Source: a marine actinobacterium PHSC20C1
GTDB lineage: Bacteria > Actinomycetota > Actinomycetes > Actinomycetales > Microbacteriaceae
Length of the DNA stretch: 64,000 nucleotides
Reading direction: 5' to 3'
Assembly (NCBI GenBank): GCA_000153145.1
Contig: CH672415.1
Coordinates: 827,208 to 891,207, forward strand
Each line of letters starts with the position of its first letter. The first letter of the stretch is position 1. Positions 8,804 through 22,635 of this stretch are shown here, piece after piece. The notes beneath the pieces are model-generated. The model made no database searches. It saw nothing but the letters and a program-made list of their open reading frames with translations, and had not been told where the DNA came from. Made by a program: the position numbers and the translations under genes.

Positions 8804-9472
8804 TTACGCATCTCTCTCAGTAAGTACCTGTGTGAGAACGTTAGCGAAAGTTTCACTCTCTTGCGCACCTGAAACTCCATATTTGCCGTCAATAACGAAA
8901 AATGGCACACCCTGGATGCCATATTGCATCGCAACTTCCATGTCAGCCTTGACAGCTGGGAGGTATTCGCTCGACTCAAGAACTCTGACAACGTCATCGC
9001 GATCGAAGCCAATGGATGCCGCGATGTCAGCAAGAACTTCAATGCGGCCCACATGTTCGGTTTTGATGAAGTACGCGTCAAGGAGACGCTCTTTCATCTC
9101 AAGCTGGCGGCCGTGCGCCTTCGCATAGTGAAGAAGTTCGTGAGCTTTGACCGTGTTCGTCTGGTGGATGTGCTCATAGTCGTAGTCGAGCCCTAAGCTC
9201 GTGGCGATGTCGGTAACGCGAGTAAGCATCTCTTCGACCTGCGGCAATGCGAGCCCTTTGCGCTCACTCAGGAACTGGGTGGGGGTACCTTCGTACTCAA
9301 CAGGGGTATCTGGAGCAAGCTCGAAGGAGTGGTATTCGATGTCAACAGCAATCCCTGAGCTGTCGACGGCGGCTTCGAACCGTCGTTTTCCGATGTAGCA
9401 CCACGGGCACTGAACATCAGACCAGATATCGACTTTTACAGGGGCAATCGGGTTTACAGCAGTTTCATTCAC
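8804..9472 (-). CDS. DsbA-family oxidoreductase, FrnE-like
   Basis: Thioredoxin-fold thiol oxidoreductase of 222 aa resembling FrnE and 2-hydroxychromene-2-carboxylate isomerase-like proteins. The CPWC active site is at Cys22-Cys25, in DIWSDVQCPWCYIGKRRFE. The all-helical insertion typical of DsbA proteins follows, and the cis-proline loop appears as GIQGVPFFVID near residue 185. There is no signal peptide, so it is cytosolic; the family is linked to polyketide tailoring or disulfide handling, and its natural substrate here is unknown. It is a single gene, convergent with the small membrane-protein gene across a 149-base gap with no clear terminator. Confidence 0.88.
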   Translation of the reverse strand: MNETAVNPIAPVKVDIWSDVQCPWCYIGKRRFEAAVDSSGIAVDIEYHSFELAPDTPVEYEGTPTQFLSERKGLALPQVEEMLTRVTDIATSLGLDYDYEHIHQTNTVKAHELLHYAKAHGRQLEMKERLLDAYFIKTEHVGRIEVLADIAASIGFDRDDVVRVLESSEYLPAVKADMEVAMQYGIQGVPFFVIDGKYGVSGAQESETFANVLTQVLTERDA

Positions 9473-9518: not shown

Positions 9519-9610
9519 CGGAAACTCAGGAAATCCTAGAACGCCCAGCCGTTAGCCCGCTTCCAAGTAGCCGAGAGCTGGCCGGTCCCTCTGGATTTCC
9601 TGAATTTCCG
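9519..9610. repeat. 92-bp inverted-terminal element, copy A
   Basis: The left arm CGGAAACTCAGGAAATCC (9519-9536) and the reverse complement of the right arm at 9593-9610 match at 17 of 18 bases. Two further elements of exactly the same 92-bp length are at 10573 and 22544; their interiors are unrelated. The right half of this copy lies inside the 3' end of the AbiEi-like gene and encodes its last 19 residues and stop. It may be a small non-autonomous mobile or REP-like element, or a structured DNA/RNA site. Confidence 0.8.
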
Positions 9611-10475
9611 TGGGCGGGCGGGCCTTGCGGGACGCTAATGCGATCCCAATTGCTTCCTGAACTAAGCCCCAACGGTTAAACACCATTTTTGCGCTCACGC
9701 TCATCGCATGGAACCCAGCGATAGTGATCTCGATTCCCTTGAGGTGGTCTTCTTCGAACGTGTGGGCATGAAACTGTTTTCCATTGATCTCCAGCCCGAC
9801 AATTCCGTTGACGACGATGTCAATCCTTTTGTTCTGGACGGCGACCTGAGTTTCCACACAGTGGCCGGCAACCCTCAATCTCGTGCGCGCAATACTCTCC
9901 GGAAGGCTGTCGCATCTGCCGTCAATCCATGATCGTATCCATCGTTTGTGGATCGGCAGACTGAGAAGAAGTTGCTCGAAATCGAACTCATCAATGCGGC
10001 CCGAATGAAGCGCCCAGTCGATAGCCGCGACGGCAGTCTCAAGATTCTCATCAACAACAACGCGCCGGAGAGCCTCTGGCAGGCTGACGTGCCAGATAGA
10101 TCCGCGTTCGACGATCGACGGCGGATCCCAATGTAATCTCACCCCTCGGCTCTCGCCGATAGGTACTCTTCGGTTCCACTGGCTACGCAATCGCGCCGCA
10201 TTCTGAGGGACCGATACCTGAAGTGGATACTCCCCTAGGACCCAGCCACCCCAGTCCTGGATGGCTGATATTCCTGTTAGCCGCCCGCCGACTCGAACCG
10301 CTCTCACCCGCGGCTCAGCTGTATCAACAGTCGTGTACCAGCCTTGCCTGGCCCTCTTCACGAGCCCTTCCTTTACGGCGCGGGTCAGGTCAACGTCTCG
10401 CGCTCCTCTTGCCACAAGTTGCCGTTTCTGAGCAAGACCGCCTAGGTCGTCCACGAGCGCCGGAATGTCCACCAT
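9552..10475 (-). CDS. AbiEi-like winged-helix protein with DUF559/Vsr-like nuclease fold
   Basis: A 307-aa protein. The N-terminal 50 residues (DDLGGLAQKRQLVARG... VKRARQGWYTTV) resemble the winged-helix domain of AbiEi-type antitoxins. The C-terminal part has a DUF559-like PD-(D/E)XK core with RIDIVVNGIVGLEINGKQFH (Asp, then Glu-Ile-Asn-Gly-Lys) and a later FHAMSVSAKMVF strand. Related proteins are common in actinobacteria, and no toxin partner is next to this one. The gene lies between two 92-bp elements; the nearer one supplies codons 289-307 and the TAA. The function is unknown: it could be a DNA-binding regulator, a nuclease, or a gene carried by the elements. Confidence 0.72.
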   Translation of the reverse strand: MVDIPALVDDLGGLAQKRQLVARGARDVDLTRAVKEGLVKRARQGWYTTVDTAEPRVRAVRVGGRLTGISAIQDWGGWVLGEYPLQVSVPQNAARLRSQWNRRVPIGESRGVRLHWDPPSIVERGSIWHVSLPEALRRVVVDENLETAVAAIDWALHSGRIDEFDFEQLLLSLPIHKRWIRSWIDGRCDSLPESIARTRLRVAGHCVETQVAVQNKRIDIVVNGIVGLEINGKQFHAHTFEEDHLKGIEITIAGFHAMSVSAKMVFNRWGLVQEAIGIALASRKARPPTEIQEIQRDRPALGYLEAG

Positions 10476-10533
10476 GTGGAAAGCGTCGCGAGTTCAACAC
10501 AAGGCCACGTTGCGGGATCCGCTATTAGTGGAA

Positions 10534-10551
10534 TCGCCGCACACACGGCGA
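10534..10551. other. Short perfect hairpin upstream of the AbiEi-like gene
   Basis: The perfect arms TCGCCG/CGGCGA flank a six-base loop, 59 bases upstream of the AbiEi-like start. It could be an operator or part of the 5' leader. It falls within the 344-base gene-free stretch 10476-10819, which also holds the 92-bp element B and the glyS hairpin. Confidence 0.3.
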
Positions 10552-10572
10552 GTGTGGAGTAGGTGTCGAAGT

Positions 10573-10664
10573 TGAAAACTCAGGAGATACGCGCAACTTC
10601 TCCCGTGCCTGTCAGCATTCAGTGCGGGAGATTCGTCAGCGTGGTCGCTTTTCCTGAGTTTCCG
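10573..10664. repeat. 92-bp inverted-terminal element, copy B
   Basis: The left arm TGAAAACTCAGGAGATAC (10573-10590) pairs with a right arm ending TCCTGAGTTTCCG (10652-10664). The shared core AAACTCAGGA is the same as in the copies at 9519 and 22544, and the total length is again exactly 92 bp. An interior inverted pair TCTCCCG/CGGGAGA (10599-10605 and 10625-10631) is specific to this copy. It lies 97 bases upstream of the AbiEi-like start, so that gene is framed by copies A and B. Confidence 0.8.
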
Positions 10665-10756
10665 AAGGGACAAGGGGCAGGTTTACAGGAACGGGCGCAT
10701 CTGCACAAGCCGGAACGCGCGTTTACGGGAAGCTGAGTAGCGGAGGGCCCGCCCAC

Positions 10757-10795
10757 GTGCGGTATCTCAAGCGGATGCCGCTTGAGATACCACAC
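10757..10795 (-). terminator. Strong hairpin downstream of glyS, probable terminator
   Basis: A perfect 14-base stem, GGTATCTCAAGCGG with CCGCTTGAGATACC, encloses a three-base loop and is lengthened by GTG/CAC beyond one mismatch. It starts 25 bases past the glyS stop. It lacks a U-run on the glyS strand, so termination efficiency is uncertain. Confidence 0.6.
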
Positions 10796-10819
10796 GGACG
10801 AATATCACTCAGGGGCTTG

Positions 10820-12205
10820 CTAGCAGCCGATGAGCTCCTGCGCGAGGTAACCGCGCAGTTCTTCGAGAGGCATCCGCTTTTGCTCCATCGTGTCGCGCTC
10901 GCGCACCGTCACGGCATTGTCATCGAGCGAATCGAAGTCGATCGTGACACAGAAAGGCGTACCAATTTCGTCTTGGCGACGGTAGCGACGACCGATCGCA
11001 CCGGCATCATCGAAGTCGACGTTCCAGAACTTGCGCAGATCAGCGGCAACGCTGCGGGCAAGTGGAGAGAGGCGTTCGTTGCGTGAGAGCGGCAGAACGG
11101 CAACCTTCACTGGCGAAAGACGGCGGTCGAGACGCAGAACGGTTCGCTTGTCGACTCCGCCCTTGGCGTTGGGCGCTTCGTCTTCGGCATACGCGTCAAT
11201 GAGGAACGCCATGAGTGCACGAGTGAGTCCAAACGCGGGCTCAATCACGTAGGGCGTCCAGCGCTCATCCTTTGCCTGGTCGAAGTACGACAGGTCAGCC
11301 CCGGATGCTTCAGAGTGCGTGCGCAGGTCGAAGTCGGTGCGGTTCGCGATACCCATGAGTTCGCCCCACTCGCTACCGGCGAAGCGGAATCGGTACTCGA
11401 CATCCACGGTTCGCTTGGAATAGTGGGAAAGCTTTTCTTGAGCGTGCTCGTAGAAGCGCAGGTTTTCGGGCTTGATGCCGAGGTCGGTGTACCACTTCAT
11501 CGACTCGTCGATCCAGTACTGGTGCCACTCTTCATCCGTTCCGGGCTCGACGAAGAATTCCATCTCCATCTGTTCGAACTCGCGGGTGCGGAAGATGAAG
11601 TTTCCGGGAGTGATTTCGTTACGGAACGACTTACCTACCTGGCCGATGCCGAACGGCGGCTTCATACGAGCAGCGCCCATAACGTTGGCGAAGTTGGTGA
11701 AAATACCCTGGGCGGTCTCGGGGCGCAGGTAGTGCATGCCCTCCTCGTTGTCGACTGGGCCGAGGAAGGTCTTGAGCAGGCCGGAGAAGTTTTGTGGTTC
11801 TGTCCACGATCCGGGCTGACCTGTATCGGGGTCGCGGATGTCGGCAAGCCCGTTGACGGGAGGGTGGCCGTGCTTCTCTTCGTAGGCTTCAAGAAGGTGG
11901 TCGGCGCGGTAACGCTTGTGGGTGTGCAGCGATTCTACGAGCGGGTCGGAAAAGACCTCGACGTGACCGGATGCTTCCCAGACTTTGCGGGGCAGGATGA
12001 CGGCGGAGTCAATTCCTACGACATCGTCACGGCCTTGAACAATGGTCTGCCACCACTGCTTCTTGATGTTTTCTTTGAGAGCCATTCCGAGGGGGCCGTA
12101 GTCCCAGGCTGAGCGTGAACCGCCGTAGATCTCTCCCGATTGGAAGACGAAACCTCGGCGCTTGGCGAGGTTGATAACGGCGTCGAGGGGGTTAGGCGTA
12201 GCCAC
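10820..12205 (-). CDS. glyS: Glycyl-tRNA synthetase (single-chain, eukaryotic/archaeal type)
   Basis: Class II synthetase charging tRNA(Gly), 461 aa, the alpha2-type used by actinobacteria. The start is the GTG at 12205, preceded by GGAG; it gives [20 protein letters not shown], the usual N-terminus, whereas the ATG at 12238 would add an unlikely 11 residues. Motif 2 is seen as [20 protein letters not shown], followed by FEQMEMEFF. Motif 3 lies near [14 protein letters not shown]. The C-terminal anticodon-binding domain contains [12 protein letters not shown] and ends near [17 protein letters not shown]. It is a single gene ending at a strong hairpin. Confidence 0.96.
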
Positions 12206-12260
12206 AGAAACTCCAATAGTCAGCCGGACTGGATGCACGGTCGGCGGATGACCAGTTTAG

Positions 12261-13307
12261 CTAGACACGAAGCGCAGCAATAACCGCAGCGACGTCTTCG
12301 TCAGTATTCCAGAGATGGAAAGCTGCACGCAGCCTTCCGGCACGTACCGATGCGCTGATTCCTGCAGCGGTGAGCTTCGCGAGATCGGCGCCGCTCTCGT
12401 CTGGCCAGGTGACAATGGCCTGATTTTGGTGCGGAATTCCGAGGGCATCGCAGAGCATATTGCCAAGTCGACTCGAATGCTCCCAGACTTCGGTCATGTT
12501 GAGGTCGGCAAACATTCCGATTGAGTGCTCGGCACCGACCCAGGCTTGCCACGCTGGCGAGACGTCGAATCTGCGGGCATCTGTTGCCAGGTTCATGGCG
12601 GGGCCATAAACGCTCGCCCACACGTCGTCGCCGGCGTACCATCCGGCCTGAACCGGCGTGACGTGTTGTGCGAAATCCTCGGAGATTGTGAGGAACGCGA
12701 CGCCGCGAGGCGCACACAACCACTTGTAGGCATGACACACGGTCGCGTCGAACAGGCTGGCATCCACGGGGTAGACGCCGGCGGCTTGGGTTATGTCGCA
12801 CAGCGTTCGTGCTCCGTAACGTGTTGCGGCCGCGATGATTGCGTCGACATCTGCCACTGCACCATTGCACGACTGCACGAGGGAGAACACGACGAGCGCT
12901 GTGCTCTCGCGAACCGCGCCGGCGAGGTCGGCGAGCTTAACTGAGCGCACAGTGAGCTCCGGGTGCTGCAAGAACGGAAACACGATCGAGGTGAAGTCAG
13001 ATTCAACACACACCACTTCTGAGCCCGCAGGAAGCGAGCACGCGATGACGGATGCCAGCACTGAGGTTTGAGAGCCGATTGCTACGCGCGTGTGGTCTAC
13101 ACCAACGAGTCGCGAATAGTGTCCCCGCGTGCGCTCGACGATTTCGCCATAGTGCATGGGATTGCGTTGCGCCGCTGACCAGGTTGCAAGGTCATCAGCA
13201 AGCGCGGTGACTGCTGCCTTGGGCGGCAGTCCCATCGTGGCAGCGGCAAGATAGCCGCGAGTGTTCTCGAAGCTGTCAATTGCCTGTTCCATAGCCGGTG
13301 TCGTCAT
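12261..13307 (-). CDS. Aminotransferase class V family protein (PLP enzyme)
   Basis: Fold-type I PLP enzyme of 348 aa resembling the cysteine desulfurase/isopenicillin epimerase branch. The PLP lysine is Lys195 in CHAYKWLCAPRG, and the aspartate that holds the pyridine nitrogen is Asp171 in LCDITQAAG. There is no active-site cysteine loop as in true cysteine desulfurases, so the reaction may be a different lyase or transaminase step. The ATG at 13307 is divergent from a LysR regulator whose promoter contains a 15-bp palindrome, so the regulator probably controls it. Substrate unknown. Confidence 0.82.
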   Translation of the reverse strand: MTTPAMEQAIDSFENTRGYLAAATMGLPPKAAVTALADDLATWSAAQRNPMHYGEIVERTRGHYSRLVGVDHTRVAIGSQTSVLASVIACSLPAGSEVVCVESDFTSIVFPFLQHPELTVRSVKLADLAGAVRESTALVVFSLVQSCNGAVADVDAIIAAATRYGARTLCDITQAAGVYPVDASLFDATVCHAYKWLCAPRGVAFLTISEDFAQHVTPVQAGWYAGDDVWASVYGPAMNLATDARRFDVSPAWQAWVGAEHSIGMFADLNMTEVWEHSSRLGNMLCDALGIPHQNQAIVTWPDESGADLAKLTAAGISASVRAGRLRAAFHLWNTDEDVAAVIAALRV

Positions 13308-13350
13308 GCCTCAATAGTGCTCTCGCCCCATTCATGCGACAAGAGCATGA

Positions 13351-13389
13351 TTGACATATAAACAATAACGTTTAGTTATGATTATGAGC
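13351..13389 (+). promoter_or_regulatory. Promoter and LysR-type palindrome between the aminotransferase and lysR-type genes
   Basis: A TTGACA box is at 13351, and a TATGAT box at 13377-13382 ends seven bases before the ATG at 13390, which suggests a leaderless transcript; the 20-base spacer is long. The palindrome ATAAC-GTTTA-GTTAT at 13365-13379 overlaps the -10 and has the dyad layout of LysR operators. It could serve autorepression and control of the divergent aminotransferase. Confidence 0.45.
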
Positions 13390-14352
13390 ATGGACACTAC
13401 CCCTGACCTCCTGACGCTGCGCATCGTTCGCGCGATCTCTGATCACGGCACGATCAGCGGGGCCGCGCGTGCGCTCGGCTACAGCCAACCCGCGCTCAGC
13501 CAGCACCTCACGAGGACCCAGTCGAGGCTCGGGCTCGCACTCGTGGTGCGTTCTGGGCGAGGTGTCCGCCTCACCGAAGCCGGTCGTGCACTCGCCAGCC
13601 ACGCCGTCACAGTAATCAATGCCGTGGATGCCGCGAGCGCCGAACTCGCAGAACTGGCTGGCTTGTCGAGCGGAACGGTGCGCATCGCTGCTTTTCCCAC
13701 TGTTTCGTCAACGGTTATTCCGAGGCTGATCCGACAGTTGAGACAACAGCATCCGAATCTGACGGTGAAGTATGTGGAAGCGGAGCCTCCTCAGGCGCTG
13801 CAGTTGCTGCGCGATGGCACGGCAGATGTGGCGATTACGTTTTCGTACCCTGGTGATCGGGCAGACCCACACCTCTTGCGTGATGGCGGCCATACGACGG
13901 TCCCGTTGTTCACAGAGCCCGTAGTTCTCGCGCTTCCCGACAGTCACCCCTTGGCGAGCGCAGACAGCGTGAGTCTCGCGGACCTCGCCGACGATGCGTG
14001 GATTGCTGGCTGCGCACTATGCCGCGGTCATCTACTCGCCCTGTGCAGCGTGGAGGGATTTGCTCCGGCGATCGGCTTGGAGACAGATAATGCTCTCGCG
14101 GTGTTGAGTTTTGTGTCGCGTGGGCTTGGTGTTGCGCTTCTGCCTCAGCTGGCACTGGCATCGCTTACCGTGCCGGAGGGCGTGAGCATCCATTCTCCGC
14201 AGCCAGCAAGCGAGCGCACCATTCAGTACGTGATTCAGCCGGGAGCAACACGGATCCCCAGCGTCGCGACGACGATTGCTACGCTTACTGCGCTTGGCGG
14301 GTCTGCGTGGGGGTTGCGGGACTATCCCGAGAGCGAGCCAACCGCGCGGTAG
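13390..14352 (+). CDS. LysR-family transcriptional regulator
   Basis: DNA-binding regulator of 320 aa from the chosen ATG. The N-terminal winged helix is typical (LRIVRAISDHGTISGAARALGYSQPALSQHL at about 9-39, here the HTH), followed by the linker and a LysR substrate domain beginning VRIAAFPTV and containing ALPDSHPLASADSVSL. The start at 13390 is favoured over ATGs at 13378 and 13384 because the latter overlap the promoter palindrome and -10 box. It is divergent from the class V aminotransferase, its likely target. Its 3' end overlaps the convergent cysteine desulfurase gene by 31 bases. Confidence 0.88.
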   Translation: MDTTPDLLTLRIVRAISDHGTISGAARALGYSQPALSQHLTRTQSRLGLALVVRSGRGVRLTEAGRALASHAVTVINAVDAASAELAELAGLSSGTVRIAAFPTVSSTVIPRLIRQLRQQHPNLTVKYVEAEPPQALQLLRDGTADVAITFSYPGDRADPHLLRDGGHTTVPLFTEPVVLALPDSHPLASADSVSLADLADDAWIAGCALCRGHLLALCSVEGFAPAIGLETDNALAVLSFVSRGLGVALLPQLALASLTVPEGVSIHSPQPASERTIQYVIQPGATRIPSVATTIATLTALGGSAWGLRDYPESEPTAR

Positions 14353-15476
14353 GCGGTTTCAATTTCGGCGGCAACGGCTTGAAGTTGTTCGGCCGTGGTG
14401 TCTGCGCTGAGACTGAATCGCACAGCAGTTTGCGCAATGGCGTCATCAATTCCGAGAGCCGAGAGCACGTGAGAGACTTCGTCGCTGCCCACCGCGCAGG
14501 CTGAGCCTGCGGAGCAGATTATGCCGGCGCGACCAAGCTCGAGCAAGAGAGATTCTCCACTCGTGCCGGGGAAACAGAATGAGGCATTGTTCGGAAGTCG
14601 ACGCGATTCGGCGGCGTCTGTTGGCCCCGTATAGATCGCTTGTGGTACTCGCGTGAGTACGTCAGCCACGAATTCGTTTCGTAGCTGAGTTGTGCGTTCG
14701 GCACGGTCGACGCGATCGCTCTCCGCGAGCGTAAGAGCATGCGCGAACCCAACGGCCCCGGCAACATTCTCAGTGCCGGAACGTTTTCCGCGTTCCTGTC
14801 CTCCGCCATGCAGTACTGGTTCGAGACCGCGGCGCCCTTTCACGATGAGTACACCGATTCCTTTCGGCGCCCCCAGCTTGTGTCCCGAGAGGCTAAGTGC
14901 GTCGACACCGAGCTCGGCTATGTTCAGCGGCAGCCAGCCTGCGGCCTGAACTGCATCCGTGTGCATTGGTATCGCAAGTTCACGACACAGCGCTGCGATT
15001 GCAGCAATGGGCTGAACGACACCGACCTCGTTGTTGGCGTACATGATTGTGCAAAGAGTTGTGTCTGGGCGAAGCGCCTCGCGTGCTTGCTGCACGTCTA
15101 CGAGTCCGGCGCTATCTACCGGCAGTACTGTGACCTCAAAGCCGTGGATGCGTCGCAAGTAGTCGACAGACTCCAGCACTGCTTCATGCTCGATAGCACT
15201 CGTCACGATGTGTCGTCCGCGCGGTTCCGCGAGTGCCAGCCCTTTGATCGCGAGGTTGTCTGACTCTGTTCCACCTGAAGTGAAGACGACATCGGATGCC
15301 CGACACCCGATCACGGCGGCGACACTCTTTCGCGCACCATCAAGGGCACGCTTCGCGGACTCCCCCAGTTCGTGATGACTAGAGGGGTTGCCAAAGTCTC
15401 CCGTCAGCAGTGGCCACATCGCTTCGAGCACCTCGCGGCGGACAGGGGTTGTTGCTGCTGAGTCGAGAAAAATCAT
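14322..15476 (-). CDS. nifS: Cysteine desulfurase, NifS/IscS type, in the NAD operon
   Basis: PLP-dependent enzyme of 384 aa that takes sulfur from cysteine for Fe-S cluster assembly. PLP lysine is Lys200 (SLSGHKLGAPKG), with His97 in SAIEHEAV stacking on the ring. The persulfide loop reads GIICSAGSACAVGS, with Cys327 at the usual position. It starts at the ATG overlapping the nadC stop (TAATG), as the last gene of nrtR-nadA-nadB-nadC-nifS. This placement suggests that it builds the [4Fe-4S] cluster of quinolinate synthase NadA, as proposed for NifS-like proteins in other nad operons. Confidence 0.92.
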   Translation of the reverse strand: MIFLDSAATTPVRREVLEAMWPLLTGDFGNPSSHHELGESAKRALDGARKSVAAVIGCRASDVVFTSGGTESDNLAIKGLALAEPRGRHIVTSAIEHEAVLESVDYLRRIHGFEVTVLPVDSAGLVDVQQAREALRPDTTLCTIMYANNEVGVVQPIAAIAALCRELAIPMHTDAVQAAGWLPLNIAELGVDALSLSGHKLGAPKGIGVLIVKGRRGLEPVLHGGGQERGKRSGTENVAGAVGFAHALTLAESDRVDRAERTTQLRNEFVADVLTRVPQAIYTGPTDAAESRRLPNNASFCFPGTSGESLLLELGRAGIICSAGSACAVGSDEVSHVLSALGIDDAIAQTAVRFSLSADTTAEQLQAVAAEIETAYRAVGSLSG

Positions 15477-16333
15477 TAGACGGATGCGCTCACTGCAATG
15501 TCGAGACCGAGATCGAGCGAGCGAACACTGTGGGTGAGTGCCCCTACTGAAATCACGTCAACGCCCGTTGCTGCGATTGCGGCAACAGTGTCAAGGTTCA
15601 CGCCACCGCTCGCCTCTACGATCGCGCGGCCCGCCACCATGGCAACTCCGGCACGCAAGTCGTAGGTCGAGAAGTTGTCGAGCATGATCGTATCTACGCC
15701 AGCAGACACGACGGTCTCCACCTGATCGAGCCGATCAACCTCCACCTCAAGATGCGTGGTGTGGCCGATGCGAGAACGGGCGCGGCGAATCGCCTCAGCG
15801 AGATCGATCCCCTCGGCCGCGAGGACCGCAAGATGATTGTCTTTCGCCATCACGGCATCGGAAAGACTGAAGCGGTGGTTGTGACCACCACCACACCGCA
15901 CGGCGTGACGTTCGAGAGCTCGCAGCCCAGGCGTCGTCTTGCGGGTATCGACGATGCGCGCGCGAGTGCCAGCCACTTTCGCAACATAGGCTGCCGTCTG
16001 AGTGGCGATTCCTGACATCCGCTGGCTGAGGTTGAGAGCGATTCGCTCCGCCCGCAAGACGGCACGTGCGTTACCTGACACGGTTGCGAGTTGTTGGCCT
16101 GCGGTGAAAGTGTCGCCATCGTTGGCATGCAGCGTGACTTGGGCTTGAGCATCCACGAGCATGAAGGTGCGCGCGAACACGTCGAGTCCGCTCGCAACGC
16201 CAGGCTCGCGAGCGTTGAGTACTGCGGTCGCAACGGCACTGGCAGGAACGAAGGCTTCGCTCGTCACGTCTCCCCACGGGGCGTCCTCAGCGAGTGCTAA
16301 CAGGATGACGTTGTCAACGAGTTCTTGATTCAT
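15476..16333 (-). CDS. nadC: Nicotinate-nucleotide pyrophosphorylase (quinolinate phosphoribosyltransferase)
   Basis: Converts quinolinate and PRPP to nicotinate mononucleotide, CO2 and pyrophosphate, the third step of de novo NAD synthesis. It is 285 aa with the N-terminal EDAPWGDVTSEAFV, the active-site stretch RIVDTRKTTPGLRALERHAV, and the HNHRFSLSDAVMAKDNHL loop that binds substrates. The barrel ends with EASGGVNLDTV. Its ATG overlaps the nadB stop by four bases (ATGA) and its stop overlaps nifS by one, so translation is tightly coupled in the operon. Confidence 0.95.
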   Translation of the reverse strand: MNQELVDNVILLALAEDAPWGDVTSEAFVPASAVATAVLNAREPGVASGLDVFARTFMLVDAQAQVTLHANDGDTFTAGQQLATVSGNARAVLRAERIALNLSQRMSGIATQTAAYVAKVAGTRARIVDTRKTTPGLRALERHAVRCGGGHNHRFSLSDAVMAKDNHLAVLAAEGIDLAEAIRRARSRIGHTTHLEVEVDRLDQVETVVSAGVDTIMLDNFSTYDLRAGVAMVAGRAIVEASGGVNLDTVAAIAATGVDVISVGALTHSVRSLDLGLDIAVSASV

Positions 16334-17943
16334 CGTATGGCCGTCTCTGCTTGGTTCTCTGCTTGGTTCTCTGCCGGATTTCGATCCTCGGCTGGGAAAC
16401 GATCTTCGGCGGGAATGAAGGCTCCGGCCACGTTTACGGCCGCCCAGCGCGTGGAAAAGGCGAGCTCTTCGTGTGTCCCGGGGTAGTCAGTGCGTTCGTG
16501 AGCACCACGTGACTCCTTGCGACGGAGCGCCGCAACAACAACCAGTCGAGCAATGTCGAGGAGATTGGCATTTTCGGCACCCTCAACGGTATTCGCCTCG
16601 GAGTGCCAGCTCGCGAGGATTGCGGCTGCTTCTTCAAGGCGGGTCGCATCACGCTCGAGACCGACGTGCGTCCACATGAGTTCGCGCAACTGACCGCGCG
16701 TGAACGACTCTTTACCGGTGATTTCGAACTGGGGCTCCACAGCGTCGACCTCGATCGCACGCTGGGGCTCATTGAGCGCATCGGCTGCACGCCAAGCGAA
16801 GACCAAAGACTCGAGCAGCGAGTTTGAGGCGAGGCGATTTGCTCCGTGAACACCGGTGCAGGATGCTTCGCCAACCGCATAGAGTCCGCGAACGCTTGTG
16901 CGACCAGAAATGTCGGTACGGATGCCACCCATCCAGTAGTGAGCTGCTGGCGTGACGGGAATGGGCTGGGTTCCCCACTCGAAGCCGTGCTCGGCGCATA
17001 CTTCGGTGATTCCGGGGAATCGCGTGGCGAGGAACTCCACACCGAGGCCAGTGGCATCGAGCATGATCGGTCGACCGCCTTGCTTTTCCATTGCTCGAGC
17101 AATGCCACGCGCAACAACGTCGCGTGGGGCAAGCTCGCCATCGGGGTGCACGTCGAACATGAAGCGTTTGCCGTGTTCATCGAGCAGCGTTGCACCTTCT
17201 CCGCGAACCGCTTCAGAGACGAGCGGGTTGCCGGGGACCGCGAGCGAAGTGGGGTGGAATTGAAAGAACTCGACATCGGCGAGCGCAGCCCCGGCACGGT
17301 AGGCGGCGGCAACCCCATCTCCGGTCGTCACGAAGGGGTTTGTTGTGTGTTTGTAGAGCTGGCCTGCTCCGCCACTGGCGATCACTACAACGTCGCCATC
17401 AATCACGCGTGAGTTCCCATCAGGGGCGATCACGTCAATCCCGGTGACTCGGGGTTTTCCATCGGCGTCGGTCTCGGTGACGAGGTCGCGCATGAAGGTG
17501 TACGCGTAAGTCTCAACCGCGAGGGCACGGACCGCACGCACAAGCGCGACCTCGATCGCAAGGCCCGTGGCATCTCCGCCGGCGTGGATTACTCGACGTG
17601 AGGAGTGGGCTGCTTCGTGACCTCGATCGAGTTCGCCATTCGCGATGCGGTCGAAATCCACACCGAGCGAAATCAGTTCTTGCACCCGCAATGGACCCTC
17701 GCTGCACAACACTTCAACAGCATCCCGCTCGCAGAGACCGGCGCCAGCACGCATAGTGTCGGCAACGTGGCTCGCAATCGAGTCGTCCGGGAACAGAACC
17801 GCAGCAATACCGCCCTGTGCGTACTTAGTGTTGCTCTCTGCGAGTTCTGATTTGGTCACAAGAACCACATCGTGGTGAGCACTCGCTCGGTACGCGGTGA
17901 TGAGCCCTGCAATGCCTGTGCCGACAACAATGACCCTGGCCAC
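16330..17943 (-). CDS. nadB: L-aspartate oxidase
   Basis: FAD enzyme that oxidises L-aspartate to iminoaspartate for quinolinate synthesis, 537 aa. The dinucleotide fold begins at the N-terminus (VIVVGTGIAGLITAYRA). Next are the flavin-contacting segments SNTKYAQGGIAAVL and SSRRVIHAGGDATG, and the substrate-site stretch FFQFHPTS. The HYWMGGIRTDISGRTSV segment and a helical C-terminal domain complete it. The start is GTG at 17943, two bases after the nadA stop. The C-terminus ends in an odd degenerate repeat, EDRFPAEDRNPAENQAENQ, probably a recent short duplication. Confidence 0.95.
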   Translation of the reverse strand: MARVIVVGTGIAGLITAYRASAHHDVVLVTKSELAESNTKYAQGGIAAVLFPDDSIASHVADTMRAGAGLCERDAVEVLCSEGPLRVQELISLGVDFDRIANGELDRGHEAAHSSRRVIHAGGDATGLAIEVALVRAVRALAVETYAYTFMRDLVTETDADGKPRVTGIDVIAPDGNSRVIDGDVVVIASGGAGQLYKHTTNPFVTTGDGVAAAYRAGAALADVEFFQFHPTSLAVPGNPLVSEAVRGEGATLLDEHGKRFMFDVHPDGELAPRDVVARGIARAMEKQGGRPIMLDATGLGVEFLATRFPGITEVCAEHGFEWGTQPIPVTPAAHYWMGGIRTDISGRTSVRGLYAVGEASCTGVHGANRLASNSLLESLVFAWRAADALNEPQRAIEVDAVEPQFEITGKESFTRGQLRELMWTHVGLERDATRLEEAAAILASWHSEANTVEGAENANLLDIARLVVVAALRRKESRGAHERTDYPGTHEELAFSTRWAAVNVAGAFIPAEDRFPAEDRNPAENQAENQAETAIR

Positions 17944-17945
17944 GG

Positions 17946-19235
17946 TTATGCCTCTTTCGTAGCGACCGGTGGCTTGGCAGCGAGCATCCGCTCAAGGGCA
18001 ACCCTGGCGGGTTCTGCAACATCCTCAGAGACCGTGATCTGGTTCAGAACTTCACCACGAACGAGACCTTCGAGCACCCAGGCAAGGTAGCCGGGGTGGA
18101 TGCGGTACATGGTCGAGCATGGGCACACCACGGGATCGAGGCAGAAAATCGTGTGCTGCGGGTTCTCGGCGGCCAGTCGGTTCACCATGTTGATTTCGGT
18201 GCCGATTGCGAACGTCGTCGGCTCGGTCGCGGCGGCAACGGCCTTCTGAATGTAGTCGGTCGACCCTGCCTCATCTGCGGCATCCACGACAGGCATCGGG
18301 CACTCGGGGTGCACGATCACACGGACACCGGGATGCTCGGCGCGGGCCTTCTCAATCTGGCCGACGGTGAAGCGCTTGTGCACGCTGCAGAAGCCGTGCC
18401 AGAGCACGACCTTCGCTTCGTCGAGAGTCTGAGTGTCGTTTCCACCGAGCGGCTTGTTGGGGTTCCACATCGGCATGAGATCGGTCGAGATGCCCATCTT
18501 CTTCGCCGTATTGCGACCCAGGTGCTGGTCAGGGAAGAACAGCACGCGCTGACCACGCTCATAAGCCCACTCGAGCACGGTGGTGGCGTTCGAGCTTGTG
18601 CACACGATTCCGCCATTGCGGCCGCAGAAGCCCTTGAGCGCGGCAGACGAGTTCATATAGGTCACGGGGATGATCGGCACGCGGCCATCGGCATCCGGCT
18701 CGGTTCCGTAAATCTCGGTGAGCTGCTCCCAGCACTCTTCAACAGAATCGATGTCGGCCATATCGGCCATCGAGCATCCGGCGGCGAGGTTCGGCAGAAT
18801 CACTGCCTGATCGGAGCGCGCGAGGATGTCTGCGGTCTCGGCCATGAAGTGCACGCCGCAGAACACGATCGCTTCCGCGTTTGGCACGGTCTGTGCGGCG
18901 TTGGCGAGTTGGAAAGAATCGCCCAAGAAGTCGGCGTGCCGAACGACCTCGTCGCGCTGGTAAAAGTGACCGAGAATGACCGCACGATCGCCGAGTGTTG
19001 CTTTGGCAGCAATGATTCTGGCGTGCAGGTCTTCGTTGGATGCCTTCTGGTACTCAACGGGCAACTGCCCCTGACGCGGTGCGCCTGTGGGGATTACGTC
19101 GCCCATCGAGGCGCCGGGGCCATAGCTGGGTACGCCGAGATCAAATGTCCAAGGACCATCTGCGAGTTCAGGCGCACAGGTTTCGCCATCACCGGTCGCG
19201 GTGATGCGCTGAATTGTCGAATCAATTGATGACAC
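17946..19235 (-). CDS. nadA: Quinolinate synthase NadA
   Basis: [4Fe-4S] enzyme that condenses iminoaspartate with dihydroxyacetone phosphate to quinolinate, 429 aa in the long actinobacterial form. The chosen GTG at 19235 follows AGGGAG at good spacing; the ATG at 19256 would lie further into nrtR. Conserved parts include VILGHFYQRDEVVRHADFLG, FCGVHFMAETADIL, the HPECPMPVV stretch and CLDPVVCPCSTMYRI, with cysteines suited to bind the cluster. It overlaps the end of the regulator gene by 14 bases and precedes nadB. Confidence 0.95.
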   Translation of the reverse strand: MSSIDSTIQRITATGDGETCAPELADGPWTFDLGVPSYGPGASMGDVIPTGAPRQGQLPVEYQKASNEDLHARIIAAKATLGDRAVILGHFYQRDEVVRHADFLGDSFQLANAAQTVPNAEAIVFCGVHFMAETADILARSDQAVILPNLAAGCSMADMADIDSVEECWEQLTEIYGTEPDADGRVPIIPVTYMNSSAALKGFCGRNGGIVCTSSNATTVLEWAYERGQRVLFFPDQHLGRNTAKKMGISTDLMPMWNPNKPLGGNDTQTLDEAKVVLWHGFCSVHKRFTVGQIEKARAEHPGVRVIVHPECPMPVVDAADEAGSTDYIQKAVAAATEPTTFAIGTEINMVNRLAAENPQHTIFCLDPVVCPCSTMYRIHPGYLAWVLEGLVRGEVLNQITVSEDVAEPARVALERMLAAKPPVATKEA

Positions 19236-19938
19236 GAGTACTCCCTGTCTTTTCATGCCCCAGCGGGCCGTTATCGACGAGCTCTACGCCCTCGTCATAG
19301 CGGTACAGCCTCGGCGGCCGGTGACGTCCACCCGAGACAACGTGGTTTGTGGGTACGAGCGTGCCCGAGTTCTCAATCTGGCGGCGGAAGTTTGCCGGGT
19401 CGAGTTCCCGCTGCAGCACAGCCTCGTGTACGAGCCGCAATTCGCTCAGCGTGAAGGTCTCACCAAGGAAGGCGCGCGCGATTCGCGAGTACTCCATCTT
19501 GGTGCGCAGTCGCCAGAGGGCGTAGTCAATGATGACGTTGTGATCGAAGGCCAGCTCGGGAAGGCTGTCGGCGGCGAACCAGCGCACGTTTACGCCCTCG
19601 GCTGCGCGCTCTGCCTCTTCCTGCCGCACAAGCGCCCAGTAAATGATGGAGACCACTCGACTGTTGATCGAACGTTCTACATCACCGAAGGCATAGAGCT
19701 GTTCGAGGTAGGCGGGTTCGAGTGCGGTGGTTTCGAGCAGATTGCGAGCCGCAGCATCCGCCAAGCTCTCGTCGTTGGCAACCCAACCGCCGGGTAGTGC
19801 CCACTGACCGGCGAATGGTTCACGGGTGCGGCGCACCAGCGGGATCCAGAGGGCGCTCTGTCCAGACTCCGGAATGGGGCGAAGCGCGAAGATCACAGTA
19901 GAAACGGCGAGTGAGATCTTTTGTTCGCTCTTGTTCAT
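19222..19938 (-). CDS. nrtR: NrtR-like NUDIX transcriptional regulator of NAD synthesis
   Basis: A 238-aa two-domain protein. The NUDIX-like N-terminal domain has GQWALPGGWVANDESLADAA; its NUDIX box is degenerate (ARNLLETTALE in place of REL..ETG), as expected of a sensor. A C-terminal winged helix of the NrtR type (TLSELRLVHEAVLQRELDPANFRR) follows. NrtR proteins bind ADP-ribose-type ligands and repress NAD genes. The chosen ATG at 19938 follows AAGGGGG; the ATG at 19962 has no such site. It heads the nadA-nadB-nadC-nifS operon and probably autoregulates it. Confidence 0.86.
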   Translation of the reverse strand: MNKSEQKISLAVSTVIFALRPIPESGQSALWIPLVRRTREPFAGQWALPGGWVANDESLADAAARNLLETTALEPAYLEQLYAFGDVERSINSRVVSIIYWALVRQEEAERAAEGVNVRWFAADSLPELAFDHNVIIDYALWRLRTKMEYSRIARAFLGETFTLSELRLVHEAVLQRELDPANFRRQIENSGTLVPTNHVVSGGRHRPPRLYRYDEGVELVDNGPLGHEKTGSTRVIN

Positions 19939-19955
19939 CGCCGCCCCCTTAGTAA

Positions 19956-20005
19956 GTGTCATGTTGACCTGAACACAGAATACACGTTAAAGTCAGTCCG
20001 ACCAA
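19956..20005 (-). promoter_or_regulatory. Promoter of the nrtR-nad operon with imperfect operator
   Basis: On the minus strand a TTGGTC -35 (20000-20005), a 17-base spacer and a TATTCT -10 (19977-19982) precede nrtR. Just downstream, at 19956-19976, is an imperfect dyad beginning GTGTTCA and ending TGACAC, where the transcript would start. This is a plausible repressor site for NrtR; the match to any known NrtR motif is not established. Confidence 0.4.
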
Positions 20006-20018
20006 AACGGCGAACGGA

Positions 20019-20831
20019 CTAGCTGGAAGAGGTACTCGGGGCGTCGACAGCGCCACCGAAACGTCGCGTGCGCTTGGCGTAAATCTCAATCGCGTACCAC
20101 AACTGCTCACGAGTGAAATCAGGCCACAGCGTGTCTAAAAACACCATCTCGGCGTACGCGCTCTGCCACGGCATGAAGTTGCTCATCCGCTGCTCCCCCG
20201 ACGACCGCACAAACAGGTCAACGTCGGGCAGTTGCGGCTGATAAAGACGCCTCTGGATGAGCTTCTCCGTGACGGCAGACGGCTTCAACTTGCCTGCCGC
20301 AACATCATCCGCGATCGAACGTACGGCATCCGCGATCTCATTGCGGCCGCCATAGTTGACACACATTGTGAGAGTCAGGGTGTCGTTCTTGTCAGTGAGC
20401 TTCTCGGCGAACTGCAATTCCTTGATCACGGAGGTCCACAAACGCGGTCGCCGGCCCGCCCAACGCACGCGCACTCCCCACTCATTGAGCTGGTCGCGGC
20501 GACGGTGCAACACATCGCGATTGAAACCCATGAGAAACCGCACCTCTTCGGGGGACCGACTCCAATTCTCGGTCGAGAAGGCGTACACACTCACATGCTT
20601 GACACCGATTTGGATGGCGCCGGCAACAACATCGAGCAGGCTCGCCTCCCCCGCCTTGTGACCCTCGACCCGCGTCAGTCCGCGCGCATTTGCCCAACGG
20701 CCATTGCCATCCATGACGATAGCGATGTGCTCAGGAACGGCACCCTTGGGCAGACTCGGTGGGTGGATGCCTGTCCAATCAAGCGGACGAAAATCTTCGG
20801 CATCCTTGTGAGTTTTTGCTACGCGGCTCAT
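20019..20831 (-). CDS. uppS: Isoprenyl transferase (undecaprenyl/decaprenyl diphosphate synthase, UppS family)
   Basis: cis-Prenyltransferase making the polyprenyl diphosphate carrier for cell-wall precursors, 270 aa. The substrate site is clear: [17 protein letters not shown] with catalytic Asp41, then [15 protein letters not shown] and the C-terminal [20 protein letters not shown]. The chosen ATG at 20831 overlaps the recO stop (ATGA); a longer reading from 20954 is recO's shadow. Chain length is not readable from the sequence; actinobacteria commonly have more than one such enzyme. Confidence 0.94.
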
Positions 20832-21556
20832 GCGCTCCGATCCACATGCTGAATGGAACGAAGACTGCGTTCCAAATGAAATTGGGCATAAGCGGCAACG
20901 ACGCCGCTGGCTTGCGAGCGCGAACGTTCGTCGGCGGCCTCGGCAACATCCCATGTTCCCGCCAGCAGTGCGCCGAGCAGTTCTAGCGTGTCTTCGCTCA
21001 AACGCGGAGCACCAGGAGGGGCAACCTCATCGGAAACCACACCGCCCATCTGGGCTACGAAGACCGAGTGCGGACCTGGCGCACCGGTCACAGCACAATC
21101 GACAAAACTCGGCGCCCAGCCGGCAATCGAGAGGCTGCGCAGCAGATAAGAATCAAGCGTCAGGCTGGGATTGTGCTCCCGCCGCGCGAGCGAACGCAAC
21201 GCGCCAACCAACAGGAGATATTGCTGCAGCGAGCCGTCATCATCCGTGACCTTATCGGCCGTTTCGACCATCACACTCGCTGCCGTGTAGCTCGCATAAT
21301 CGGCGGTGATATCTGAGCCGTAGGACCCGAGTGACTCAGCCTGCTGAATGATGTCGAGGCTGCGCCCGATGTAACACTGAATGTCGGCGACCATAAAGGG
21401 TTCAAGCCGCGCCCCAAACTTTGAGGCAGTACGACGCACCCCTTTTGCTACCGCGCGAATCTTTCCGTGCTCTCGCGACAACATGGTGACGATGCGGTCT
21501 GCTTCACCCAATTTATGGGTGCGCAGCACGACGGCTTCATCACGATAGGTAGGCAC
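20828..21556 (-). CDS. recO: DNA repair protein RecO
   Basis: RecF-pathway mediator that helps load RecA on SSB-coated DNA, 242 aa. The N-terminal OB fold begins [25 protein letters not shown] and continues with [24 protein letters not shown], both typical. A helical region follows; the usual zinc-site cysteines of RecO are reduced here to a lone DCAVTG stretch. The start is GTG at 21556. It is coupled to uppS through an ATGA overlap. In many actinobacteria leuA lies just upstream of recO; here about 3.7 kb of accessory genes lie between them. Confidence 0.93.
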
Positions 21557-21709
21557 CCGTCAAGTATCCCCCTGTTGCTGGCTCTTTGCCTCAGCGACCG
21601 CCCGCAGCGACCACGTTTTTGGCCAGCCCTATCTGCCAACAGCGTTACCGGTAGATTGTGAACGACGCACTGAAACTATGAGACACGCGAACGCGGCACA
21701 AGGAAGAGC

Positions 21710-22459
21710 ATGATGATTCTGGTCACCGGTGCAACCGGCAGTCTCGGCCGCCACACTGTCGATCTGCTGCTGCAATCGGGATACAGCGTGCGTGGGCTCA
21801 GCCGCCACCCCGGCCCAGGCAATGTGGTTGCCGACCTGAGTACAGGAGTAGGGCTTGCGGATGCTCTCGCCGGAGTCACCACTGTCGTGCACTTGGCCAC
21901 GGGCGCGAATTCTCACGATTCGCAGCAGACACGGCAGCTCTTGAGGGCATTTGCCGCGCATCCCGTCAAGCACCTCATCTTTATGTCAATCGTTGGCGTG
22001 GATCGGCACTCCTTCTCCTACTATCGAGACAAGTACCTCAGCGAGCAACTAATCGCTGATTCGGGAATCCCGTACACGATTCTTCGCGCCACTCAGTTTC
22101 ATAGTTTTGTGGCACGACTGTTCACGGGTCAGCAACGACTACCGGTGACAATCGTTCCTCGCTTTAGCGTGCAGCCCGTCGCAGTCGAAGAGGTCGCCGA
22201 ACGCGTGATCGAGCTCGTCGATGCTGGCCCAAGCCAGCGAGTTCCGGACTTTGCTGGACCGGAACAGTTGAGCTTCCGCGAGCTCGCACAGCAGTGGAAT
22301 GCTGCTCATTCTCGTCGTCGGCCCGTGTGGGCAATCCCGTTTCCTGGCGCCGCTGGTCGATCGTTTCGTGAGGGCGTTCATCTTTCGGCGCTTCCCGGTG
22401 ATGCGCACGTGCCGTTTTCTGCCTTCGCGCACGAGCACGCTCAGACCAAGGGTTTGTAA
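21710..22459 (+). CDS. NmrA-like NAD(P)-binding protein (atypical SDR)
   Basis: A 249-aa Rossmann-fold protein with the cofactor motif VTGATGSLGRHTVDLL at the N-terminus. Further on are the VVHLATGA strand, SIVGVDRHSFSYYRDKYLSE, with a YxxxK-like arrangement, and SGIPYTILRATQFHSF, all typical of NmrA/atypical SDR proteins. Members reduce quinones or act as redox sensors; no specific substrate is indicated. The start is one of two adjacent ATGs (21710 or 21713), after AAGGAAGAG. It is divergent from recO and followed by a 92-bp element. Confidence 0.83.
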   Translation: MMILVTGATGSLGRHTVDLLLQSGYSVRGLSRHPGPGNVVADLSTGVGLADALAGVTTVVHLATGANSHDSQQTRQLLRAFAAHPVKHLIFMSIVGVDRHSFSYYRDKYLSEQLIADSGIPYTILRATQFHSFVARLFTGQQRLPVTIVPRFSVQPVAVEEVAERVIELVDAGPSQRVPDFAGPEQLSFRELAQQWNAAHSRRRPVWAIPFPGAAGRSFREGVHLSALPGDAHVPFSAFAHEHAQTKGL

Positions 22460-22543
22460 CTACGCCAAAGTTTGCTGAGGTATCAGCGCGCCGCCGGCGA
22501 ACCTACACTCGCGCCCTCAGCATGTCGGCCGTCCCGATTTTTT

Positions 22544-22635
22544 CGGAAACTCAGGAAATCCACGCAGGTAGATGTAACGAAGCACCAGTTTTCAGGGTTC
22601 AAGTCACGGCTCGCGCGAATTCTCCTGAGTTTCCG
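22544..22635. repeat. 92-bp inverted-terminal element, copy C
   Basis: The left end CGGAAACTCAGGA (22544-22556) is an exact inverse of the right end TCCTGAGTTTCCG (22623-22635). The first 18 bases are identical to the left arm of copy A at 9519. Total length is again 92 bp, with an unrelated interior. It lies between the NmrA-like and TRIC-family genes, outside any coding sequence. Confidence 0.85.

Follow-up and report, generated by a model that had tools for sequence, protein, structure and literature searches.

Inverted arm pairs spaced by whole helical turns bracket an AbiEi-EDxHD nuclease gene in actinobacterium PHSC20C1 and its relatives and suggest a REPIN-like dispersed repeat system

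The locus described here belongs to the marine actinobacterium PHSC20C1 (Microbacteriaceae, Salinibacterium group), whose genome of 2,772,187 bases is contained in a single contig. In the window, i.e., the whole 64,000-nucleotide stretch analysed (contig CH672415.1, positions 827,208 to 891,207), a putative nuclease gene encoding a 307-amino acid product occupies positions 9552..10475 on the minus strand and is bracketed by two 92-bp elements with inverted ends, A and B. Element A (9519..9610; like B and C, it is given no strand) has arms at 9519-9536 and 9593-9610 that match in 17 of 18 positions. The 3′ end of the nuclease gene falls inside it, and a DsbA-like gene starts approximately 47 bp downstream. 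Element B (10573..10664) precedes the start codon of the nuclease gene by approximately 98 bp, with arms at 10573-10585 and 10652-10664; its right end is perfect and its left end reads TGAAAACTCAGGA, with two mismatches. The third element, C (22544..22635, arms at 22544-22556 and 22623-22635), has perfect 13-base ends and is flanked by an NmrA-like gene and a glycine-transporter gene. The original prediction, made from the letters of the window, had given these coordinates, the 92-bp length and the arm matches of A and C, and all of them proved correct. No target-site duplication was seen in the flanks of A, B or C. The neighbours of the bracketed gene, given as context, encode a DsbA-like thioredoxin-domain protein (8804..9472, minus strand) and a class II aminoacyl-tRNA synthetase with an anticodon-binding domain (10820..12238, minus strand), which is probably glycyl on the basis of size and domains. 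Positions 10761-10791, between element B and the synthetase gene, hold a hairpin with a perfect 14-bp stem, GGTATCTCAAGCGG-ATG-CCGCTTGAGATACC, which is probably the terminator of that gene.

Residues 1-185 of the bracketed protein are AbiEi-like and residues 190-285 resemble an EDxHD/Vsr-like nuclease. Its two Pfam matches, PF18741 (MTES_1575) and PF13338 (AbiEi_4), are weak and below cut-off; nine relatives matched MTES_1575, AbiEi_4, DUF559 and, in one weak case, DUF2726. The structure model predicts an AbiEi fold together with a Vsr-like catalytic fold, the latter appearing close to a homing endonuclease. Residues E193, D219, H236 and D243 are invariant in both family alignments and are likely catalytic; they may correspond to the E-D-H-D motif. 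Proteins of the AbiEi_4-DUF559 type are common orphan genes in actinobacteria, annotated merely as toxin-antitoxin or endonuclease-domain proteins. At least one member of the family is broken beside intact ones, as L108 (G007:C3:3636) carries an internal stop.

The pattern CGGAAACTCAGGA-N66-TCCTGAGTTTCCG, with up to three mismatches allowed, occurs at five places in the source genome: A, B, C and, beyond the three elements of the original prediction, positions 1,632,302 and 1,644,395. Reversed-pattern controls gave zero matches for this and every other paired pattern, and single-arm scans gave 2 and 1 control matches. With exact arms and any gap from 52 to 82, just the three perfect N66 copies were recovered. 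Single arms without a partner were found once as exact matches and four times with one mismatch, against approximately three expected from a uniform-base estimate. Since unpaired arms thus occur near the chance rate, the arm pair, not the lone arm, is the unit. Longer members of 110 and 114 bp are present in the same genome. A lone canonical arm was also seen beside a run of 100 N at G000:C1:765061 (L021, L223); around this arm, approximately 87 bases are identical when its surroundings are compared with the reverse-complemented flank of the 114-bp element at 1,560,223, and a scaffold join or duplicated end is the likely cause.

Element lengths were compared in 97 distinct elements from fetched regions of 16 genomes of the genus, 14 with canonical arms and two (G013 and G004) with variant arms. 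These remained from 106 raw element rows after nine nested or overlapping alternatives, including cores of 60, 82, 93 and 121 bp, were dropped by hand-set rules. Expressed as core length, which is the element without its outer C and G, they fall at 79 (11 elements), 80 (6) and 81 bp (3), at 89 (1), 90 (32), 91 (13) and 92 bp (3), at 100 (2), 101 (5) and 102 bp (5), and at 111 (8) and 112 bp (7), with one at 108 bp. Once the nested alternatives are gone, there are zero elements in the intervals 82-88, 93-99 and 103-107. The best-fit period was 10.7 bp, with R of 0.91 vs. a null maximum of 0.37 in 2000 draws. When one value per locus was used (31 loci), R was 0.885 near 10.9 bp, a value reached by 0 of 20,000 random sets. 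Because the lengths repeat every 10.7 bp or so, both arms stay in phase with the DNA helix. The constant length claimed by the original prediction stood in part: a spacer of 66 is more frequent than any other (32 of 97), but it is one rung among several, as is seen from the 110- and 114-bp members and from the genus as a whole. The spacers are not of one length; they form a discrete ladder of approximately 10.7 bp, which speaks for a constrained spacing.

Whole-turn steps are also seen when a single locus is followed from species to species. The core of the element upstream of the nuclease gene measures 90-91 bp in 8 of 14 genomes and 100-102 bp in the other 6, and that of an element in the xylulokinase gene measures 80 bp in G017 and 92 bp in G023. 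In both cases the length change between species is a whole helical turn. A 79-bp-core element of G017 that clustered with C is located across the transporter gene from it and was therefore not used as a length change of C. At one further locus (G000:C1:1560224) two 111-112-bp elements, whose starts are approximately 180-320 bp apart, are found in seven other genomes and one in the source genome. Several of these elements retain a conserved centre near GGATGCCCGGAAATCCGGGCATCC, and they may have a special role.

A second arm family, independent of the first and with GAAATGAMGGA pairs, gave 56 elements in 7 of the 27 genomes of the genus sample and none in the control. Their lengths, searched over the range 70-100 and tallied by hand, were 77 (1), 78 (30), 79 (18), 80 (4), 90 (2) and 100 (1). 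A ladder in both arm families is the signature expected of two protein-binding sites facing the same side of double-stranded DNA. The terminal-stem RNA that the original prediction had offered as one option, in which the elements would be RNA hairpins or terminators with conserved stems, has in its favour that the arms form a stem in all five copies folded and that several elements lie at 3′ ends. However, a loop length that steps by the DNA helical turn is unexpected of RNA, the Rfam search of the window at gathering thresholds returned zero matches, elements are found ahead of genes, in the gaps between convergent genes and within coding sequence, and the arms track the nuclease lineage. We consider an RNA origin highly improbable, and this part of the prediction is not supported.

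The elements and the nuclease gene occur together. Canonical pairs were found in 14 of the 27 genomes in one paired-pattern search and in 11 of the 27 in another, and the 14 genomes are exactly those having a nuclease orthologue of at least 59% identity (Fisher 5e-8, uncorrected for kinship). The orthologues of G004 (57%) and G013 (56%) came without any canonical element in these searches and have a variant-arm pair, GGCAACTCAGGA, upstream of the nuclease. Among 14 distant family members (L104-L117, 29-36% identity), shared private arms were found on both sides of the gene in 10, on one side in three and on neither in one.

For the bracket test the same arm had to be present as an inverted pair on both sides of the gene with no more than three mismatches in total. 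The set comprised 49 named loci, mostly from Microbacteriaceae with a few metagenome-assembled genomes; 47 of these had a usable family gene and 44 enough flanking DNA. The test was passed by 33 of 44 family loci vs. 1 of 244 neighbouring control genes, and the sole control pass (L148) has family-like arms. Arm distance was found to track protein distance (Mantel r 0.56, 0 of 5000 permutations). For this, an arm pair was resolved at 48 of 64 loci, and sets of 42 and, after removal of three near-identical proteins, 39 were used. A table of gaps for the 48 loci was kept out of the counts, as two loci lacked an anchor and some anchors (L108 and L142, for example) were wrong. Some candidates were dropped: two exact single-arm matches in G059, outside the genus, whose best partner arm has at least five mismatches; L035 (G015), with five mismatches in the partner arm; and L032 (G004), with a partner arm at 82 bp that has three mismatches.

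The second dispersed system, with GAAATGACGGA arms in 7 of the 27 genomes, has 19 copies in G017, 13 in G023, three in G015 and two in G014. The exact co-occurrence of gene and elements in the first system, and a predicted catalytic domain close to a homing endonuclease, would also suit a toxin-antidote or gene-drive arrangement, in which the nuclease would be harmful to the chromosome and the dispersed pairs would provide sinks or protected sites. We hold this to be improbable, as the copy number goes down to two (G014) and as orphan elements without the gene seem to exist (G023, G015).

Elements are placed upstream of genes, between convergent genes, in several cases at 3′ ends, and in coding sequence. 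Some lie in frame within protein genes, namely those for SMC, HrpA, a methyltransferase, MutM and xylulokinase, all named by eye from sequence. The SMC linker was compared in 27 genomes (L340-L366) and stands out as a hot spot from which insertion history can be read: its in-frame pairs come from several families, depending on the species. The inner gap is 57 bp exactly for canonical arms in G008, GAAATGACGGA arms in G017 and G023, AAATGCAGGA arms in G014 and CAACTCATGG arms in G003 and G018; in these four arm families and six genomes the gap meets the reading frame and the 55-58 rung alike. In four of the six (G008, G017, G014 and G003) the SMC arms are those that bracket the genome's own nuclease, and in G018 and G023 no nuclease was seen with brackets matching the SMC arms. 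Other pairs in the linker are TTCTCCGGAG with a gap of 55 in G021 and G022, and pairs of other kinds with gaps of 69 in G007 and 64 in G013; 17 of the 27 genomes have no perfect 10+10 pair there. Since control windows in the same gene yielded a perfect 10+10 pair in 6 of 81 cases, a lone pair such as that of G013 may be due to chance. The linkers of G007 (L341) and G004 (L343) also carry a different palindromic repeat, GGTTGAGTAGC ... GTATCGAAACC and GGTTTCGATACG ... GCTACTCAACC, respectively, imperfect in G004, which may be another dispersed system.

The xylulokinase gene permitted a comparison of the interior with the corresponding DNA of orthologues that lack arms, whereas the SMC linker was too variable for it. 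Among 23 orthologues in the 27 genomes, canonical arms are present in G017 and G023 and GGCAACTCAGGA-type arms, which also stand upstream of the G004 nuclease, in G004. The interior of the element is a native stretch, LPRVVAPGESAG-like, which is also present in the 20 orthologues without arms.

Interiors were compared across 129 sequences, 32 of them from the second system (a partial set, ungrouped by genome). No within-genome matches at E < 0.01 were found among the 97 first-family elements, and copy-and-paste together with the interior was rejected for non-local copies of this family on that ground. In G023 two near-identical second-system elements lie 151 bp apart and two similar 79-bp cores 262 bp apart; both look like local duplications. 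The motif GGATGCC/GGCATCC recurs within many elements. The view that the interiors are unrelated has to be qualified for the 90-bp core class, in which 30 distinct members share a weak, oriented, near-central motif of 6.67 bits per element in the best window; 60 shuffles, scored at the central window only, gave no more than 3.01 bits. A free motif search scored 8.19 vs. at most 7.33 in 10 shuffles. In the 90 class, the motif it found sits no more than 3.5 bp from the middle in 19 of 47 elements, and in the 111 class no more than 2.5 bp away in 10 of 14. The offset is 4-7 bp in 8 of 11 elements of the 101 class, and no such centre was found in the 79 class. These offsets are suggestive of an arm-to-centre distance that grows by one turn on one side or both, the 101 and 111 sets containing orthologues.

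Terminal inverted repeats, small size and multiple copies are also what decayed miniature inverted-repeat transposable elements (MITEs) of an ordinary transposase would show, in which case the association with the nuclease would be accidental. Arms that are near perfect around unrelated interiors do not fit such decay, and the bracketing of the nuclease across genera disfavours a chance link, so that we regard this as the least probable of the explanations considered.

The elements differ among species in where they stand, and many of them persist. Nine other genomes share the position of C, and G026, where an arm contains a gap of one base, makes a tenth. At this locus, which is a less biased check of conservation, the element is kept in all 11 examined genomes of the window's clade and the interiors have drifted. 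Arms at shared loci are 92-97% identical. Such stability could mean that the elements serve the host: the nuclease-like protein would be an architectural or regulatory DNA-looping factor, the arms would arise by mutation and be kept where a loop is useful, and the nuclease domain would be secondary. The one-turn differences between species in the upstream bracket and in xylulokinase, the placement of A, B and C approximately 47-98 bp upstream of a gene start and the native interior in xylulokinase agree with a network of this kind. Speaking against it are the elements located between convergent genes or within coding sequence, the presence, side by side in one genome, of several systems that have their own private arms (with as many as 19 copies) and the invariance of the likely catalytic residues. 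We judge a host-serving network rather unlikely, yet well ahead of a toxin-antidote or RNA origin.

Paired inverted arms of approximately 13 bp, their whole-turn spacing, the bracketed gene, the lineage-specific arms and the species-variable sites are observed directly. The 92-bp elements probably make up the cis component of a dispersed, REPIN-like repeat system; as its trans factor we propose the AbiEi-EDxHD nuclease encoded between A and B. Selection on end spacing, suggested by the original prediction, is upheld by the helical ladder, the bracketed nuclease gene and the co-occurrence of gene and elements; on the same evidence, a protein binding both ends appears to be the best reading among the mechanisms it had listed. 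Antitoxins of the AbiEi family are reported to bind inverted repeats, and DNA bending is reported for AbiEi (PMC7319586). In the proposed system each arm would be bound by one AbiEi-type domain, and protomers lined up on one face of the helix, two or four in number, would join the arms and bend the DNA between them, bringing two nuclease domains together near the centre of the element. Cutting and repair at the centre could then let arm pairs spread and persist around any DNA between them. The interior would not be cargo, since arm pairs would be kept around whatever DNA lies there. For the spread of the arms two routes are open, break and repair on the one hand, and mutation with selection for a binding network on the other. 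A selfish, REPIN-like system is favoured by the parallel private systems, by copies located in permissive protein loops or where genes converge, and by the bracketing of the nuclease gene.

Several results weigh against the proposed system. One core of 108 bp lies off the ladder, the sole exception among 97. In G004 and G013 an arm pair was sought downstream of the nuclease and none was found, so that the pair stands on the upstream side only. The bracket test failed at 11 of 44 loci (L131, L134, L139, L148, L149, L152, L153, L156, L157, L163 and L164), including three of five Microbacterium and both Agromyces loci, and the two Microbacterium loci that passed (L150 and L151) have unusual arms. 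The co-occurrence and Mantel values are raised by kinship among the genomes. For the 13 second-system elements of G023 and the three of G015 no nuclease bracketed by such arms was seen, which makes them apparent orphans, and the dispersed copies come from genome-wide scans of two arm families. The native interior is drawn from one gene, xylulokinase, with two arm variants. The conservation of the arms is partly built in, because the elements were found through them. The original prediction had also called for a comparison of orthologous loci for empty sites and target duplications: at the C locus and at a shared locus downstream of a 463-amino acid gene, genomes without the element do have shorter intergenic DNA, but the difference exceeds one element and neither a clean junction nor a target duplication was found. 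As many elements stand at the same locus in many species, movement is rare, and their conservation in place over long times favours the host-serving network.

Comparison with known systems places the elements nearest to REPIN-RAYT pairs, with which they share inverted doublets around a less conserved or variable spacer, repeats flanking the cognate gene and several private repeat-gene systems per genome. In PMC3116915, the commonest REPIN spacings are reported as 71 and 110 bp. Unlike in REPIN-RAYT systems, the candidate trans factor is an AbiEi-EDxHD nuclease and not an HUH/Y1 tyrosine transposase, the trait by which those systems are defined; the spacing follows a ladder of approximately 10.6-10.7 bp, a signature of double-stranded DNA; one element has a native host interior; and the present searches gave 2-19 copies per genome, as opposed to the 560 doublets used for SBW25 in PMC3116915. 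With EDxHD/Vsr-like homing endonucleases such as I-Bth0305I the protein shares the modelled Vsr-like catalytic fold. At the window locus, however, its gene is free-standing between two genes, without intron or intein, it has an AbiEi domain and bracketing arm pairs, and interiors are not copied as in homing. The predicted AbiEi antitoxin fold recalls AbiE type IV toxin-antitoxin systems, from which the window locus differs in that no AbiEii (DUF1814) toxin adjoins the gene, the protein has a fused nuclease domain, and repeats are found on both sides of the gene and genome-wide. MITEs differ in that interiors are not shared here by first-family elements of one genome.

Rickettsia palindromic elements are likewise short inverted-repeat insertions that keep the reading frame of protein genes, but in the present case one geometry is common to several arm families with cognate nucleases. 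Among the titles and abstract openings listed from the open-access PMC literature, none described such a system, with subscription journals and preprints outside the search.

We tentatively suggest, as a possibility that is less likely than not, a cargo-less mobile system in which a nuclease complex would engage two points of host DNA whole turns apart and install or maintain its own inverted arms there, leaving the interior untouched. Each lineage would write private arms, a genome could hold several such systems, and permissive loops such as the SMC linker would collect them. If arms are indeed written around native DNA, the system would spread without carrying any cargo. The AbiEi_4-DUF559 family gains a partner in the form of private, helically phased pairs of sites on both sides of the gene, which in the two scanned systems are also dispersed genome-wide, and with it a large unexplained protein family gains a testable function. 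The system would be an independent counterpart of REPIN-RAYT, with a different enzyme and a geometry of double-stranded DNA. The helical ladder leads to sharp binding predictions, as whole-turn spacings should work and half-turn spacings should not, and the natural series of arm-protein pairs can be used to read DNA choice by AbiEi-type domains. Elements and nuclease together point to a selfish or genome-marking system of a kind that has attracted little notice.

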